Part shown: in pieces, positions 953 through 8,728 of the stretch
Layout of the letters: the number at the start of each line of letters is the position of its first letter
How positions within the stretch are numbered: the first letter of the stretch is position 1
Assembly (NCBI GenBank): GCA_003156695.1
Contig: PMHN01000120.1
Span: 1-12,741, forward strand
DNA: 12,741 nucleotides
Reading direction: 5' to 3'
Origin: Gammaproteobacteria bacterium
GTDB lineage: Bacteria; Pseudomonadota; Gammaproteobacteria; Steroidobacterales; Steroidobacteraceae
Position numbers and translations under genes: made by a program
Notes under the pieces: generated by a model
The model's input: the letters and a program-made list of their open reading frames with translations, nothing else
What the model was told of the DNA's origin: nothing
Database searches by the model: none

Positions 953-1528
953 ATGAGCCGCTTTTCCGCCGCGCGGTTTCTGGTGAGCGCAGCCGCGCCG
1001 GCGCAGTTCCCGCCCGACACCGGCGCCGAGGTCGCGTTCGTCGGCCGCTCCAACGCGGGTAAGTCGAGCGCCATCAACGCCATCACGCACCGCCACGGAC
1101 TGGCGCGCACCAGCAAGACCCCGGGCCGCACGCGGCTGCTGAATTTCTTCGAGCTGGCGCCCAACCAGCGCCTCGTCGATCTGCCCGGGTACGGCTATGC
1201 GAGTGGACCGGCAACAGAGCGCCGCACCTGGAAGCCGCTCATCGACGCGCTGCATACGCGCGCGAGCCTGCATGGGCTGTTCGTGATCGTGGACGCGCGC
1301 CGCGGGCTGACCTCCGGCGATGAGGGGCTGCTGGAATGGGCCGCGCCCCAGCACCAGGTGCACGTGCTGCTGTCGAAGGCCGACAAGCTCAATCGCAGCG
1401 AGGCGAGCCAGGCCCTGCGGCACGCGGCGGGTCTGCTGGGAGCGCGCGCCAGCGTGCAGCTGTTCTCGGCGCTGAAGGGCACGGGCGTCGCGGATGCTGA
1501 GGACACCCTTGCCCGCTGGCTCGGCTAG
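953..1528 (+). CDS. engB: Ribosome biogenesis GTPase EngB/YihA
   Basis: A small GTPase of the TrmE-Era-EngA-EngB group, needed for large-subunit ribosome assembly and cell division in many bacteria. The 191 residues show G1 GRSNAGKSS (31-39), the G2 region SKTPGRT (54-60), G3 DLPGYG (76-81) and G4 SKAD (141-144), the exact spellings typical of EngB. The ATG at 953 was chosen because the protein then starts just before the conserved SAxxxxxxPxDTGxEVAFxGRSN segment. The frame is open further upstream, but that stretch runs across the cytochrome gene on the other strand. There is no good Shine-Dalgarno sequence before this ATG, so the start is slightly uncertain. It is a little shorter at the C-terminus than the E. 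coli protein. It diverges from cytochrome c4 and converges on the putative small RNA and polA. Confidence 0.95.
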   Translation: MSRFSAARFLVSAAAPAQFPPDTGAEVAFVGRSNAGKSSAINAITHRHGLARTSKTPGRTRLLNFFELAPNQRLVDLPGYGYASGPATERRTWKPLIDALHTRASLHGLFVIVDARRGLTSGDEGLLEWAAPQHQVHVLLSKADKLNRSEASQALRHAAGLLGARASVQLFSALKGTGVADAEDTLARWLG

Positions 1529-1553: not shown

Positions 1554-1589
1554 AAAAAACCCCGGCGGTCTCTTGCGAAGCCGCCGGGG
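1554..1589 (-). terminator. Strong Rho-independent terminator
   Basis: The arms CCCCGGCGG (1560-1568) and CCGCCGGGG (1581-1589) pair perfectly over 9 bp around a 12-base loop. On the minus strand the stem is followed directly by six T (the A run at 1554-1559). No T run follows it on the plus strand, so it serves the small RNA (and read-through from the barrel gene) rather than engB. Confidence 0.92.
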
Positions 1590-1666
1590 CCAGACTAACC
1601 CGGTACAGGTCTCATGAACCGGGTCTACCCGCTCAGGGAGGGAAGCGGGGAGTGCTTATGCACTCG
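1554..1666 (-). ncRNA. Putative structured small RNA in the polA-engB gap (Spot 42/ErsA position)
   Basis: No protein-coding frame fits here, but the minus strand forms four successive hairpins. Hairpin 1 pairs 1665-1660 with 1655-1650 around loop AUAA. Hairpin 2 pairs 1649-1644 with 1633-1628 around loop UCCCUCCCUG. Hairpin 3 pairs 1624-1618 with 1604-1598 around loop UCAUGAGACCUGU. Hairpin 4 is a 9-bp GC terminator followed by six U. Hairpin 2's loop is an exposed CCUCCC anti-Shine-Dalgarno sequence, typical of trans-acting riboregulators. A sigma-E-like promoter upstream predicts a start at about 1664-1667, giving a transcript of about 113 nt (Spot 42 is about 109). The position, downstream of polA on the same strand and convergent with engB, is that of Spot 42 (E. 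coli), and ErsA (Pseudomonas) occupies the same gap. Alternatively it could be a structured 3' untranslated region of the barrel gene. The ends are inferred, not measured. Confidence 0.7.
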
Positions 1667-1671
1667 TTAGG

Positions 1672-1699
1672 TTCGACGCAGGGGGGTCTCTGGAGTTCC
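1672..1699 (-). promoter_or_regulatory. Sigma-E/AlgU-like promoter of the putative small RNA
   Basis: The minus strand reads GGAACTC (1699-1693), a 16-base spacer, then TCGAA (1676-1672). Extracytoplasmic-function promoters of the RpoE/AlgU class have GGAACTT, 15-17 bases, then TCnnA or TCnAA. The match predicts transcription starting six to eight bases on, exactly at the foot of the first hairpin. ErsA in Pseudomonas is known to depend on AlgU (sigma-22), which fits. The spacer holds a run of six C. Confidence 0.55.
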
Positions 1700-1774: not shown

Positions 1775-1790
1775 GCCTGTTAGAACAGGC
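1775..1790 (-). other. Palindrome over the stop codon of the barrel gene
   Basis: GCCTGTT and AACAGGC are separated by two bases and include the TAA stop of the outer-membrane protein gene. On the minus strand a weak T-rich stretch (GTTTGTTG) follows at a short distance. It may protect the mRNA 3' end or weakly terminate, but there is no proper U tract. Confidence 0.35.
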
Positions 1791-2352
1791 TCAGAATGAA
1801 CGCGAGCGAAAAAACCTTGGCTCCATTGGTATTCGGGATATTGAAGTCCTCGTACTCGAGGCGCCCGCCGATGTTGCCGATATGTGCCTGTGTCCCCACA
1901 CCCCAGGCGAATTCGGTGCCCTGGTTTGAGACAGCGAAGAAGTTTCCCGGCGGCGGAGCGAACCCAGAAGAGCTGCCGTCGAGCTTCCAGCGGGCAAGCC
2001 CGGCCTTCCCATAGACGTCCAGGAACGGCAGCGGGATCGGCAGGAACCCGACCGCGTAGCCGGCGAAGGCTTTGGCGTCCGAATGCGAGACTTCCGCGCC
2101 GTTAAAAAAGGTATTCGTCTGGCTACCCAGGTTCATGTAGTCGACTTCCACCGCGAACGGGCTGATCGGGCGAAATCCGGCCAGCACTTTCCAGGAGGTG
2201 CTGTCGATATCCGAAAGGCTGATGCCCGGGTTGTTGGTGATGTCCCCCACTTTGTCCCGCGAGATGCCGGCCCCGACATAAAACAAATTGTCGTCCGCGT
2301 GCGCGAGGCCGGCGCCGAGCGCCAGGGCAGTCAGGAGCAATAGTTTTCGCAT
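1780..2352 (-). CDS. Small outer-membrane beta-barrel protein (OmpW/OmpA-barrel-like)
   Basis: A 190-residue protein predicted to form an eight-stranded outer-membrane barrel. A signal peptide MRKLLLLTALALGAGLAHA ends in an AHA|DD cleavage site (after residue 19). The mature part alternates polar and hydrophobic residues in short strands (LFYVGAGIS, SWKVLAGFRP, FAVEVDYMNLGS, GYAVGFLP, LDVYGKAGLARW, TEFAWGVGTQAHI, GGRLEYEDFNI) and ends in Phe, the signature recognised by the Bam machinery. The start is supported by GGAAGG placed seven bases before the ATG. It lies between polA and the putative small RNA, all on one strand, and 148 bases after polA. Base composition is visibly less GC-rich than polA. 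The specific porin or adhesion role is not evident, so only the barrel class is claimed. Confidence 0.8.
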   Translation of the reverse strand: MRKLLLLTALALGAGLAHADDNLFYVGAGISRDKVGDITNNPGISLSDIDSTSWKVLAGFRPISPFAVEVDYMNLGSQTNTFFNGAEVSHSDAKAFAGYAVGFLPIPLPFLDVYGKAGLARWKLDGSSSGFAPPPGNFFAVSNQGTEFAWGVGTQAHIGNIGGRLEYEDFNIPNTNGAKVFSLAFILSLF

Positions 2353-2500: not shown

Positions 2501-5272
2501 TCAGTGCGCCTCGTCCCAGTTGGCTCCGGAACCGATGTCAACACGCAGGGGCACGCTTAAGGAGGCGGCCTTGACCATGTGCTCGCGAACCGCTGCGGAG
2601 ACCGCGGCCAGCGCCTCGGCGGGCACTTCGAACACCAGTTCATCGTGCACCTGCATGATGAGCCGCGCCGGCGCGTGCTCCGCGCGGCACCAGGCATCCA
2701 CCGTGATCATGGCGCGCTTGATGATGTCCGCCGCCGTGCCCTGCATCGGTGCGTTGATGGCGCTGCGCTCTGCGTACTGACGCATCTGCGCGTTGCCCGA
2801 GCGGATGTCAGGCAGGTAGAGGCGCCGCCCGAAAACGGTCTCGACGTAGCCCATCTCGCGCGCCTGCGCACGCGTGTTGTCCATGAAGCGCTTCACGCCC
2901 GGGTAGCGCTGGAAATAGCGCTCGACGTACGCCTGCGCCGCGCCGCGATCGATGCCGAGGTTGCGGGCAAGTCCGAACGGCGACATGCCGTAGATGAGGC
3001 CGAAGTTAATGACCTTGGCGGTGCGGCGCTGATCCGGCGTGACCGCAGTGAGCTCGACGCCAAAGACTTCCGCGGCGGTTGCCTGGTGCACATCCGTGTC
3101 GGCGGCGAACGCGGCGCGCAGGCTCTCGTCCCCGGACAGGTGCGCCATGATCCGCAGCTCGATCTGCGAATAGTCCGCCGCCAGCAGCACGTGTCCGGGC
3201 GGGGCGATGAACGCCTGGCGGATACGGCGCCCCTCCGGGCGGCGCACCGGGATGTTCTGCAGGTTGGGGTCCACCGAGGACAGCCTGCCGGTGGCTGCAA
3301 CTGCCTGCGCGTAGTTGGTATGGATGCGCCCGCTGTGCTCTCTGGCGAGCTCCGGCAGCTTGTCGGTGTAGGTGGATTTGAGCTTGGCGAGCGCGCGGTA
3401 CTCCAGAACAATGCGCGGCAACGGATAGTTCTCGGCGAGCTCTTCCAGCACGTCCTCGGCCGTGGAAGGCTGACCGGTCGGGGTCTTGCGCCGCACCGGC
3501 AGCTGCAGCCGCTCGAAGAGGATCTGCTGCAGCTGCTTCGGGGACTCGATGTTGAATTCGTGGCCCGCTTCGCGGTGCGCCTGCGCCAGCAGGTCGTGCA
3601 GCTGACGCGCGAATTCGCGGCTCTGGGCCCGCAGCCGCTCGCGGTCCACCAGCACCCCGTGATGCTCCATGGCGAGCAGCACCGGCACCAGCGGTTGCTC
3701 ACACTTCTCATAGAGCTCGCGCAGCGCCGGCACCGCGGTGAGTTGCGGCCACAGCGTCTGATGCAAGCGCAGCGTCACGTCCGCTTCTTCTGCCGCGTAC
3801 TCGGCCGCCCGTTCCACCGGCACCTGGTCGAACGGGATCTGCTTGGCGCCCTTACCGGCGACGTCCTCGTAGGTGATGGTGCGCACGCCGAGGTAGCGCT
3901 GCACATCCGAGTCCATGTCGTGGTTGGTGGCGGAGCTGTTCCACACGTAGGACTCGAGCATGGTGTCGAAGCGCATGCCGGCAAGATGGATGCCGGCATT
4001 CAGGAGTACGTGGGCGTCGTACTTGAGGTTGTGACCCACTTTGCCGCGAGCCGGGTCCTCGAGAATCGGCTGCAGGGCCGCCAGTACCCGGGCGCGCTCG
4101 AGCTGCTCCGGCGCGCCAGCGTACACGTGCCGCAGCGGCACGTAGGCAGCGCTGCCAGGGGTGATGCAGAACGATACGCCGACGATCTCGGCGCGCATGT
4201 AGTCGAGACTCGTGGTCTCGATATCGAAGGCGAAGAGTTCCGCCGCGCGCAGTGCCGTGAGCCAGCGCTCGAGATCTTCCCAGCGACTGATGGTCTCGTA
4301 GTGGCGCTCGATCTGCACCGTGGCGCTGTTGGCCGTCGCGGCTGGCGCGCCTGCAGGTGAGTCCGGCACGCCGGTCGCGGCCGCGCCTCGGGTGCCGGCA
4401 GCAGCGGCTGCGCCCGCCTCGTCGCCATCCAGCTGCCGCAGCAGGGCGCGCAGCTCGTTGCGCGTGTAAAGCTCGCGCAGCGCCGCCGTGTCCGCCGCGC
4501 CCGGTGTCAGTTGCTCCATCGACAGAGGCAACTCCAGATCGGTGCGGATGGTGGCGAGTTTGCGCGACAGCTCGAGTGTTGTGAGCCCGGCGCGCAGGTT
4601 CTCGCCCACCTTGCCCGGGACCTCCGCGACGTGCGCGATGAGGTTGTCGACGCTGGTGTATTGCTGCAGCAGCTTCGCGCCGGTCTTGGGTCCCACCTTG
4701 TCGATGCCCGGAATGTTGTCGGAGCTGTCGCCGACCAGGGCCAGGTAGTCGATGATCTGCTCCGGGTAGACATCGAACTTGGCCTTCACCCCGTCGCGAT
4801 CCAACATCGCGTTGTTCATGGTGTTGATGAGGGTGACCGAGCCGTCGACGAGTTGTGCCATATCCTTGTCGCCGGTGGAAATGAGTACCGTCTCGCCGGC
4901 CTGTGCGGCGCGGCGCGCGAGGGTGCCGATGACATCATCCGCCTCAACGCCGGGAATGCGCAGCAGTGGCAGGCCTTGTGCGCTGATGATCTTCAGCAAC
5001 GGCTCGATCTGCGCCCGCAGGTCATCGGGCATCGCCGGCCGGTGTGCCTTGTACTCGGCGAACAGCTCATCGCGAAAGGTCTTGCCCGGCGCATCGAAGA
5101 CCACCGCGATGCGGCGCGGCTGAAAATCCTTGACGAATTTCAGCAGCATGTTGAGAACGCCAAGCACCGCGCCGGTTGGTTCACCGCGCGAGTTGGACAA
5201 GGGCGGCAGGGCATGGAATGCCCGGTAGACATAAGAAGAGCCGTCGACGAGGACCAGGTCGGGCGAAGGCAT
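2501..5272 (-). CDS. polA: DNA polymerase I
   Basis: Repair and Okazaki-fragment-processing polymerase, 923 residues, close to the E. coli length of 928. The N-terminal 5' nuclease shows DAPGKTFRDELF, GVEADDVIGTLA, STGDKDMAQLV and GDSSDNIPGIDKVGPKTG. An Ala-rich linker (about residues 284-317) precedes the 3'-5' exonuclease, with FDIETTSLD near residue 350, GHNLKYDAHVL and YAAEEADVTL, so proofreading residues are kept. The polymerase domain has motif A DYSQIELR (near 700), motif B RRTAKVINFGLIYG (near 747) and motif C VHDELVFE (near 875). The start ATG precedes the usual LVLVDGSSYVYRAFHALPPL. It diverges from the DUF1800 gene and is followed by the barrel gene and putative small RNA before convergent engB. 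No obvious terminator follows it. Confidence 0.98.
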   Translation of the reverse strand: MPSPDLVLVDGSSYVYRAFHALPPLSNSRGEPTGAVLGVLNMLLKFVKDFQPRRIAVVFDAPGKTFRDELFAEYKAHRPAMPDDLRAQIEPLLKIISAQGLPLLRIPGVEADDVIGTLARRAAQAGETVLISTGDKDMAQLVDGSVTLINTMNNAMLDRDGVKAKFDVYPEQIIDYLALVGDSSDNIPGIDKVGPKTGAKLLQQYTSVDNLIAHVAEVPGKVGENLRAGLTTLELSRKLATIRTDLELPLSMEQLTPGAADTAALRELYTRNELRALLRQLDGDEAGAAAAAGTRGAAATGVPDSPAGAPAATANSATVQIERHYETISRWEDLERWLTALRAAELFAFDIETTSLDYMRAEIVGVSFCITPGSAAYVPLRHVYAGAPEQLERARVLAALQPILEDPARGKVGHNLKYDAHVLLNAGIHLAGMRFDTMLESYVWNSSATNHDMDSDVQRYLGVRTITYEDVAGKGAKQIPFDQVPVERAAEYAAEEADVTLRLHQTLWPQLTAVPALRELYEKCEQPLVPVLLAMEHHGVLVDRERLRAQSREFARQLHDLLAQAHREAGHEFNIESPKQLQQILFERLQLPVRRKTPTGQPSTAEDVLEELAENYPLPRIVLEYRALAKLKSTYTDKLPELAREHSGRIHTNYAQAVAATGRLSSVDPNLQNIPVRRPEGRRIRQAFIAPPGHVLLAADYSQIELRIMAHLSGDESLRAAFAADTDVHQATAAEVFGVELTAVTPDQRRTAKVINFGLIYGMSPFGLARNLGIDRGAAQAYVERYFQRYPGVKRFMDNTRAQAREMGYVETVFGRRLYLPDIRSGNAQMRQYAERSAINAPMQGTAADIIKRAMITVDAWCRAEHAPARLIMQVHDELVFEVPAEALAAVSAAVREHMVKAASLSVPLRVDIGSGANWDEAH

Positions 5273-8157: not shown

Positions 8158-8433
8158 GTGATCAAGAGCTTCAGGCACAAGGGGCTGGCGGAGTACTTCA
8201 ACACTGGAAGTCACCGCAAGGTCCAAGCCAAGCACGCTGCGCGGCTGAAGCTTATCTTGGGTTTGCTTAACGGCGTCGCGCACGCCGGCGCGATGAATGC
8301 TCCCGGGCTGGGACTCCACCCGCTCAAGGGAAAACCGAAGCGCTGGGCGGTCAGCGTGGATGAGAACTTTCGCGTGATTTTCCGCTTCGAGGACGGACAC
8401 GCGCTGGAGGTTGACTATGACGACTACCATTAA
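8158..8433 (+). CDS. higB: HigB-type toxin (RelE-like mRNA interferase)
   Basis: The toxin of a type II toxin-antitoxin pair, 91 residues, which cuts mRNA at the ribosome. It matches the Rts1 HigB subgroup from end to end: MIKSFRHKGLAEYFNTG at the N-terminus, HPLKG (54-58), NFRVIFRF (70-77) and the terminal DYDDYH, which supply the His, Arg, Tyr and His residues associated with catalysis in that group. The start is GTG; the nearby ATG at 8151 is in another frame, and MIKSF is the family's normal first segment. No Shine-Dalgarno sequence precedes it, and the best -10 box predicts a transcript starting almost at the start codon. Its last codons overlap the antitoxin gene. Toxin-first order is the hig pattern. 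Confidence 0.92.
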   Translation: MIKSFRHKGLAEYFNTGSHRKVQAKHAARLKLILGLLNGVAHAGAMNAPGLGLHPLKGKPKRWAVSVDENFRVIFRFEDGHALEVDYDDYH

Positions 8434-8728
8434 GGCGGCGCCGATGATGCACAGCCCGCCGCACCCGGGTGAGATCTTGCGTGAGCTTTATCTGAAGCCG
8501 ATGCGCATCACGATCGTCGAGGCGGCGAACGGCCTCGGCGTCACGGCTAAGCATGTGTCCGGGATTGTGAACGGTCGCGCGCGCATCACCGCGGATATGG
8601 CCATTCGGCTCGCGGCGGCGCTCGGTACCGACCCGCAGACCTGGGTAAACCTCCAAGCGCAGCACGACCTGTGGGTGGCGAGTCAGAAAAAGCCGCCCAG
8701 CGTGAAGCCGCTTCGGCAGGCGGCTTGA
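8417..8728 (+). CDS. higA: HigA-type antitoxin (XRE-family regulator)
   Basis: The antitoxin and autoregulator of the pair, 103 residues. The N-terminal PPHPGEILRELYLKPM is the hallmark of HigA/VapI antitoxins, followed by a helix-turn-helix (about residues 31-60, ITIVEAANGLGVTAKHVSGIVNGRARIT) and the typical MAIRLAAALGTDPQTWVNLQAQHDL. The ATG at 8417 has GGAGG six bases before it and overlaps the higB end by 17 bases, so translational coupling is likely. An upstream in-frame TTG (8411) is less suitable. The DNA for its last residues also forms part of a terminator on the opposite strand. It should bind the palindromes upstream of higB. Confidence 0.93.
   Translation: MTTTIKAAPMMHSPPHPGEILRELYLKPMRITIVEAANGLGVTAKHVSGIVNGRARITADMAIRLAAALGTDPQTWVNLQAQHDLWVASQKKPPSVKPLRQAA
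8687..8726 (-). terminator. Likely terminator of the lptM operon inside the 3' end of higA
   Basis: On the minus strand AAGCCGCC (8726-8719) can pair with GGCGGCTT (8697-8690), after which the T run from 8691-8687 follows. A competing shorter hairpin uses AAGCCGC (8705-8711) with GCGGCTT (8720-8726). The signal lies downstream of the lptM stop and wholly within higA codons. The large loop makes it a moderate call. Confidence 0.5.

Follow-up and report, generated by a model that had tools for sequence, protein, structure and literature searches.

A small RNA gene in the polA–engB interval

The window, by which we mean the whole analysed stretch of 12,741 nucleotides, carries on one strand polA, a gene for an outer-membrane beta-barrel protein and a small RNA gene, and the small RNA gene is followed by a convergent gene which we take to be engB from its place and kin (Table 1). 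The arrangement bears out the preliminary description, in which the small RNA gene was placed in the polA–engB interval on the strand of polA. An outer-membrane beta-barrel gene lies between polA and the small RNA gene in several relatives too, and it is doubled in two of them (L003 and L012). Elsewhere in the window (8158–8728), two small adjoining frames, named by eye, have the look of a HigBA-type toxin-antitoxin pair.

Folding of the window sequence indicates that the minus strand of the small RNA region forms four stem-loops in succession, with a terminator as the final one. The minimum free energy is -60.4 kcal/mol as compared to a mean of -39.0 for shuffled sequences (z = -5.87), and none of 200 shuffles equalled it. 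The earlier description gave three hairpins plus a six-U terminator in about 113 bases, and the computed fold of about 115 nt agrees with this, although the folded stems of 6, 7, 8, and 11 bp come close to, but are not identical with, the 6, 6, 7, and 9 bp originally given. The three minus-strand frames over the RNA contain only short readings interrupted by stops, in agreement with the earlier statement that no coding frame is present. A simple terminator scan did not pick up the terminator of the small RNA. Scanning the window with Rfam gave a match to anti-hemB (RF02837) at 1552–1651 with an E value of 5.8e-11, a value which shows that the small RNA is more than a chance structure, and the observation of a small RNA at this place is confirmed. 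Its 5' end would lie near 1665–1668, judging from the position of the promoter described below, and its 3' end would be the U tract. The loop of hairpin 2, CCCUCCCU, is presumed to be the mRNA-binding site.

Table 1. Features of the small RNA locus in the window (R1, covariance model built from 30 sequences of the window's order; R2, class-wide model)
Feature	Position	Strand	Evidence
Small RNA, about 115 nt	1554..1668	-	fold, Rfam anti-hemB, models R1 and R2 (R2 69.6 bits)
Hairpin 1, 6 bp, 4-nt loop	1650..1665	-	fold
Hairpin 2, 7 bp, loop CCCUCCCU at 1635-1642	1628..1649	-	fold
Hairpin 3, 8-bp outer stem	1597..1625	-	fold
Intrinsic terminator, 11-bp stem (1558-1591) and six U	1554..1591	-	fold
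Putative -35 element GGAACTC, sigmaE-type	1693..1699	-	motif; conserved position in the order
Putative -10 element TCGAA	1672..1676	-	motif
engB, convergent neighbour of the small RNA	953..1528	+	Pfam MMR_HSR1
Outer-membrane beta-barrel gene, between polA and the small RNA	1780..2352	-	Pfam OMP_b-brl
polA, upstream, same strand as the small RNA	2501..5272	-	Pfam DNA_pol_A and exonuclease domains

A putative sigmaE-type promoter precedes the small RNA gene

The small RNA gene of the window is preceded by the motif GGAACT-N17-TCGAA (1699–1672), and GGAACT-N17-TC was detected at 41 of the 46 loci collected from the order. In the class (Gammaproteobacteria in the GTDB sense, betaproteobacteria included) the motif before the small RNA reads GAACTT, 16 bases, TC, which we take to fit the consensus of sigmaE (RpoE, AlgU). 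The -35 element of the window is weaker than this consensus. With the strict pattern GAACTT-N13-18-TC, 58 of 109 class loci were positive versus a mean of 0.2 in shuffled sequences and 1 of 1903 other sequence windows from the same loci, and in 51 of these 58 motifs the spacer is exactly 16 bases long. A looser pattern was found at 94 of the 109 loci as compared to 8.45 in shuffles and 130 of the 1903 other sequence windows; 15 of the 109 class loci do not show even this loose motif. RpoE scored over its curated cut-off in 15 of 21 genomes of the search among relatives, and in the window's own genome, which is 77% complete, neither RpoE over the cut-off nor RseA_N was found. The motif had been missed in the preliminary description and would be a new sigmaE-type promoter; we infer that the small RNA is transcribed in the organism of the window and that sigmaE drives its expression.

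Rfam membership and distribution of the small RNA

When compared with the anti-hemB model the small RNA obtained 55.6 bits, above the cut-off of 49.5 bits, so that, judged by its score, it is a member of this curated Rfam family, and it can no longer be called undescribed. Its score against the sX13 model (RF02232) was 26.8 bits, below the cut-off of 50 bits, and a search of its own genome with the sX13 model at E ≤ 0.001 gave no match. Neither anti-hemB nor sX13 carries a clan in the Rfam output. Among 60 genomes of the search in relatives (own genome included), anti-hemB matches at E ≤ 0.001 were obtained in 48, with 17 of the 60 over the cut-off. Four weak matches (L047–L050) without polA or engB were discarded as false before the loci of the order were counted, and five further weak matches were left out of the loci set.

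A search of class genomes with R1, which used no positional information, gave matches at E ≤ 0.001 in at least 120 of 276 genomes (own included) and in 93 of 216 genera, and the count of 120 is a lower bound because filters were strict and few candidates were scored per genome. This spread over the class refutes the earlier idea of a lineage-specific RNA. When 20 class loci were scanned with Rfam, a single one passed any cut-off, namely that of anti-hemB, and the present Rfam models do not seem to cover most of the small RNA family.

Conservation of the C-rich loop and of the stems

In an alignment of 30 of the 46 order loci, the seven loop bases CCTCCCT are invariant in all 30 sequences, including that of the window, and the stem around them varies by paired exchanges. 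The C-rich loop that had been proposed is therefore not only present in the window but invariant in the order. The loop of hairpin 3 is not C-rich in the genus of the window and is of UCCCCA type in 13 of 14 more distant sequences aligned from the order. A covariance model combined with a search for compensatory changes in the stems, the check suggested beforehand, was carried out and such changes were found in the order as well as in the class. The class-wide alignment comprised 113 matches from 100 class loci, with L152–L160 left out, and compensatory (double) changes occurred in all 24 modelled pairs, a count that leans towards structure since this alignment was fitted to it. In the same alignment the covariation score was 0.520, versus 0.193 after shuffling and 0.03–0.09 when the pairing partner was slid, and 94.9% of the cells can pair as compared to 37–52% once the partner is slid by one to three columns. 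The motif CTCCC occurs inside the first 35 nt at 102 of the 109 class loci.

The genomic neighbourhood in the class

For the analysis of the neighbourhood, 109 of the 119 R1 matches outside the window's own genome were taken and the 10 lowest-scoring class genomes with a match were left out. polA upstream or a convergent engB downstream was present at 89 of these 109 loci, and at 6 only a cytochrome c gene that adjoins engB was detected. At 4 loci (L083, L088, L109, L127) the small RNA is inverted, still beside polA and engB, and 10 loci contain neither polA, engB, nor the cytochrome c gene in the stretch taken. In a sample of 30 of the 156 class genomes negative with R1, polA lay within the stretch at 4 of 25 engB loci.

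A pattern combining promoter and loop yielded at least 120 loci in named organisms, 80 of which were read. Among the 80 listed, engB is convergent downstream at 72 (these include Nitrosospira, Dechloromonas, Aromatoleum, Sulfuricella, and Thioalkalivibrio), polA is upstream at 15, one locus has polA and the cytochrome c gene only, and 7 have none of them. R2 recovered the small RNA at all 29 of the 80 loci given to it, a result that is not independent since the loop is itself part of the search pattern. Across the small RNA from engB, Aromatoleum (L241) and Nitrosospira (L242) have hemB, identified by Pfam and read away from the RNA, and in Dechloromonas (L240) the gene on the other side is arranged similarly, as judged by eye. 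The presence of hemB beside the small RNA in Aromatoleum and Nitrosospira probably explains the name anti-hemB.

Relationship to known small RNAs

Anti-hemB has in common with the small RNA of the window the hairpin with the CCUCCCU loop, a second hairpin, and the terminator, and in related betaproteobacteria it is convergent with engB as in the window. The 5' hairpin of the window small RNA falls outside the Rfam model, which has 81 positions. In Aromatoleum and Nitrosospira hemB occupies the place of polA, and no hemB stands beside the small RNA in the window, where the barrel gene and polA are found instead; the Rfam model does not include the position beside hemB. According to a study on Burkholderia, the anti-hemB homologue ncS04 is a transcript of 105 nt for which binding of Hfq is cited (PMC5688073).

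ErsA is described in three reports as an RNA of 132 nt from the polA–engB region that depends strictly on sigma22 (PMC5819304; PMC7565897; PMC8575079). It resembles the small RNA of the window in this interval and in a sigma22/sigmaE-type promoter, as far as the motif in the window tells, but has a long, partly single-stranded CUCC stretch in place of the short CCUCCCU hairpin. A Pseudomonadaceae-type group of genomes was chosen by means of PrrF, for which one genome exceeded the cut-off. R2 matched a small RNA in the polA–engB gap at 15 of 20 engB loci of this family with 23.6–37.2 bits, a count that leaves out L223, where only the terminator by engB was matched, and one further polA locus of the family gave 37.8 bits. 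In 400 kb of one Pseudomonas-type genome the polA–engB RNA was the best R2 match with 30.7 bits, the next one reaching 18.6 bits. Two of the 15 scores do not exceed 25.3 bits, the best background match in E. coli. R1 gave nothing significant at the locus in 25 genomes of the family (best score 25.2 bits at the locus and 30.2 bits elsewhere). Inspection by eye shows a GAAC box and a TC element ahead of the Pseudomonas RNA, which is taken to be ErsA by its locus, length, and promoter.

sX13 had been named beforehand as a C-rich-loop RNA possibly beside polA, and kinship to it is supported by matches of R1, R2, and the sX13 model. In three genomes with sX13 over the cut-off, R1 obtained 27–28.5 bits and R2 33.6–34.5 bits at sX13 when short loci were searched; these genomes were recovered by R1 only in this unfiltered search and were not reported when whole genomes were searched at E ≤ 0.001. 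The sX13 model matched in 15 of 276 class genomes, 3 of them over the cut-off, and 5 of 7 sub-cut-off loci examined lie beside polA, the best reaching 48.3 bits. The sX13 model in turn picks polA–engB RNAs of other families. sX13 is located downstream of polA, as is the small RNA of the window, but in the window the barrel gene intervenes. sX13 has three hairpins with C-rich loops; one loop of the window small RNA is C-rich, and in several relatives from the order two or three loops are. The study of sX13 describes an RNA that acts without Hfq and whose C-rich loops repress mRNAs having G-rich motifs near their starts, places it beside Spot 42 and alpha-r7 among the small RNAs of polA loci, and calls its gene exclusive to Xanthomonadaceae, leaving other bacteria open (PMC3771888).

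Spot 42 of E. coli occupies the same gap between polA and yihA (engB) on the same strand as the small RNA of the window. Matches at the correct place (R1 14.2 bits, R2 17.9 bits) made it look promising as a relative, but it was dropped because of the background: in 300 kb of E. coli the R2 match to spf was 9th of 16, and one of the eight higher ones lies on DsrA. The view that RNAs at this locus have unrelated primary sequences holds for Spot 42, which does not rise above background, but is not supported as regards ErsA and sX13, to which the model matches point. Spot 42 also differs in that its RefSeq record carries a small frame, spfP, the SpfP protein being annotated inside Spot 42 (L161, 2918–2965).

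Candidate function and alternative explanations

Taken together, we consider it probable that the window encodes an envelope-stress small RNA which has its own sigmaE-type promoter, belongs to a family located beside engB, and represses translation by means of a C-rich loop. It would be a free-standing RNA, transcribed from the envelope-stress promoter and ended by the intrinsic terminator, and its fixed CCUCCCU loop would bind Shine-Dalgarno sequences or further G-rich sites close to the start of target mRNAs, the translation of which would then stop under envelope stress. Analogy with sX13 and ErsA makes a repressor of translation that acts in trans plausible, and translational repression is the best reading because the loop is of the kind found in sX13, is fixed in the order, and is represented by CTCCC at nearly all class loci. 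MicA and RybB are sigmaE-dependent small RNAs of enterobacteria that repress mRNAs. They would share the logic of sigmaE-driven mRNA repression with the small RNA of the window.

The most probable of the alternatives is that the same conserved small RNA is constitutive, being transcribed by another sigma factor outside the envelope-stress response, and that the GAACTT box serves some other ECF factor or is a remnant. sX13 is reported to be constitutive (PMC3771888), and the box is absent from all three sX13 loci. For ncS04 no significant change is given under any of the conditions tabulated in the Burkholderia study, where SDS stress was among the treatments but does not appear as a column (PMC5688073), and this constancy makes a simple, general response to stress less likely in Burkholderia. 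In addition, the genomes of the search among relatives contain many ECF-type factors with a match to the RpoE model. However, spacing and position of the box are fixed over the class, ErsA, which comes from the same locus, depends strictly on sigma22 (PMC7565897), and a sigma-70-type scan of 1500–2500 revealed no site, so that constitutive expression seems unlikely to us.

The downstream position on the strand of the barrel gene, and the terminator at its end, would also suit an RNA that arises from the barrel gene as its 3' untranslated region or by read-through and is kept mainly as a terminator. This is very improbable as the family persists where no barrel gene precedes it and where the upstream gene is hemB in the opposite direction, and a terminator would need neither the conserved loop nor the promoter. 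A protein sponge of the CsrB/RsmY kind, instead of an mRNA-pairing RNA, might explain why short exposed motifs repeat in several hairpin loops of relatives. Binding sites of CsrA/RsmA carry GGA, which is not contained in the loops CCUCCCU and UCCCCA. As sX13 acts on mRNAs through its loops (PMC3771888), a sponge is scarcely to be expected.

Against the preferred reading of a sigmaE-driven repressor it counts that a search for targets in the window's own genome using AGGGAGG-N3-12-ATG gave 18 matches versus 10 for a reversed-pattern control, and no target was found. The negative searches for RpoE and RseA_N in that genome, the weaker -35 element of the window, the class loci devoid of even the loose motif, and the constitutive, Hfq-independent sX13 weigh in the same direction. 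Few of the matches precede long frames; three such frames encode, by Pfam, a Peptidase_M23 protein, an asparagine synthase, and an ABC-2 membrane protein, and they were rejected as named targets because the signal is too weak. Duplex energies calculated for 13 starts in the window, 9 of them at a start codon, stayed within background (barrel gene -10.3 kcal/mol, 5% level -12.5 kcal/mol).

One old family adjoining engB across the class would include Rfam anti-hemB, Pseudomonas ErsA, and Xanthomonas sX13. We lean towards the view that these three are branches of one ancient small RNA which was inherited beside engB, was ancestrally driven by sigmaE, exchanged its promoter in Xanthomonas, and had polA exchanged for hemB in betaproteobacteria; our confidence in this view is limited by the failure of R1 to report sX13 and the Pseudomonas RNAs in whole genomes. 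In the accessible portions of the open-licence literature no paper was found that joins ErsA, sX13, and anti-hemB or gives anti-hemB a sigmaE promoter, and we regard it as new that the RNA is spread over the class at one locus and has a conserved sigmaE-type promoter, as we do the argument that the three named small RNAs belong together.

Small RNAs are usually regarded as fast in turnover and narrow in spread. A class-wide small RNA that keeps to one neighbourhood and in most cases to a single stress promoter would offer a fixed point for studying the evolution of small RNA regulons, would point to a likely regulator and mechanism for anti-hemB, and would allow knowledge on targets of ErsA and sX13 to be tested in relatives. 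If the three RNAs do form one family, this envelope-stress small RNA would be far wider spread than the enterobacterial MicA and RybB.

At some loci the small RNA is present in two to four closely spaced copies, which gives the impression of a gene that duplicates readily in its place. Four copies were observed at L064 and L077, three, one of them weak, at L072, and two at L081, L113, L118, L136, L139, and L242.
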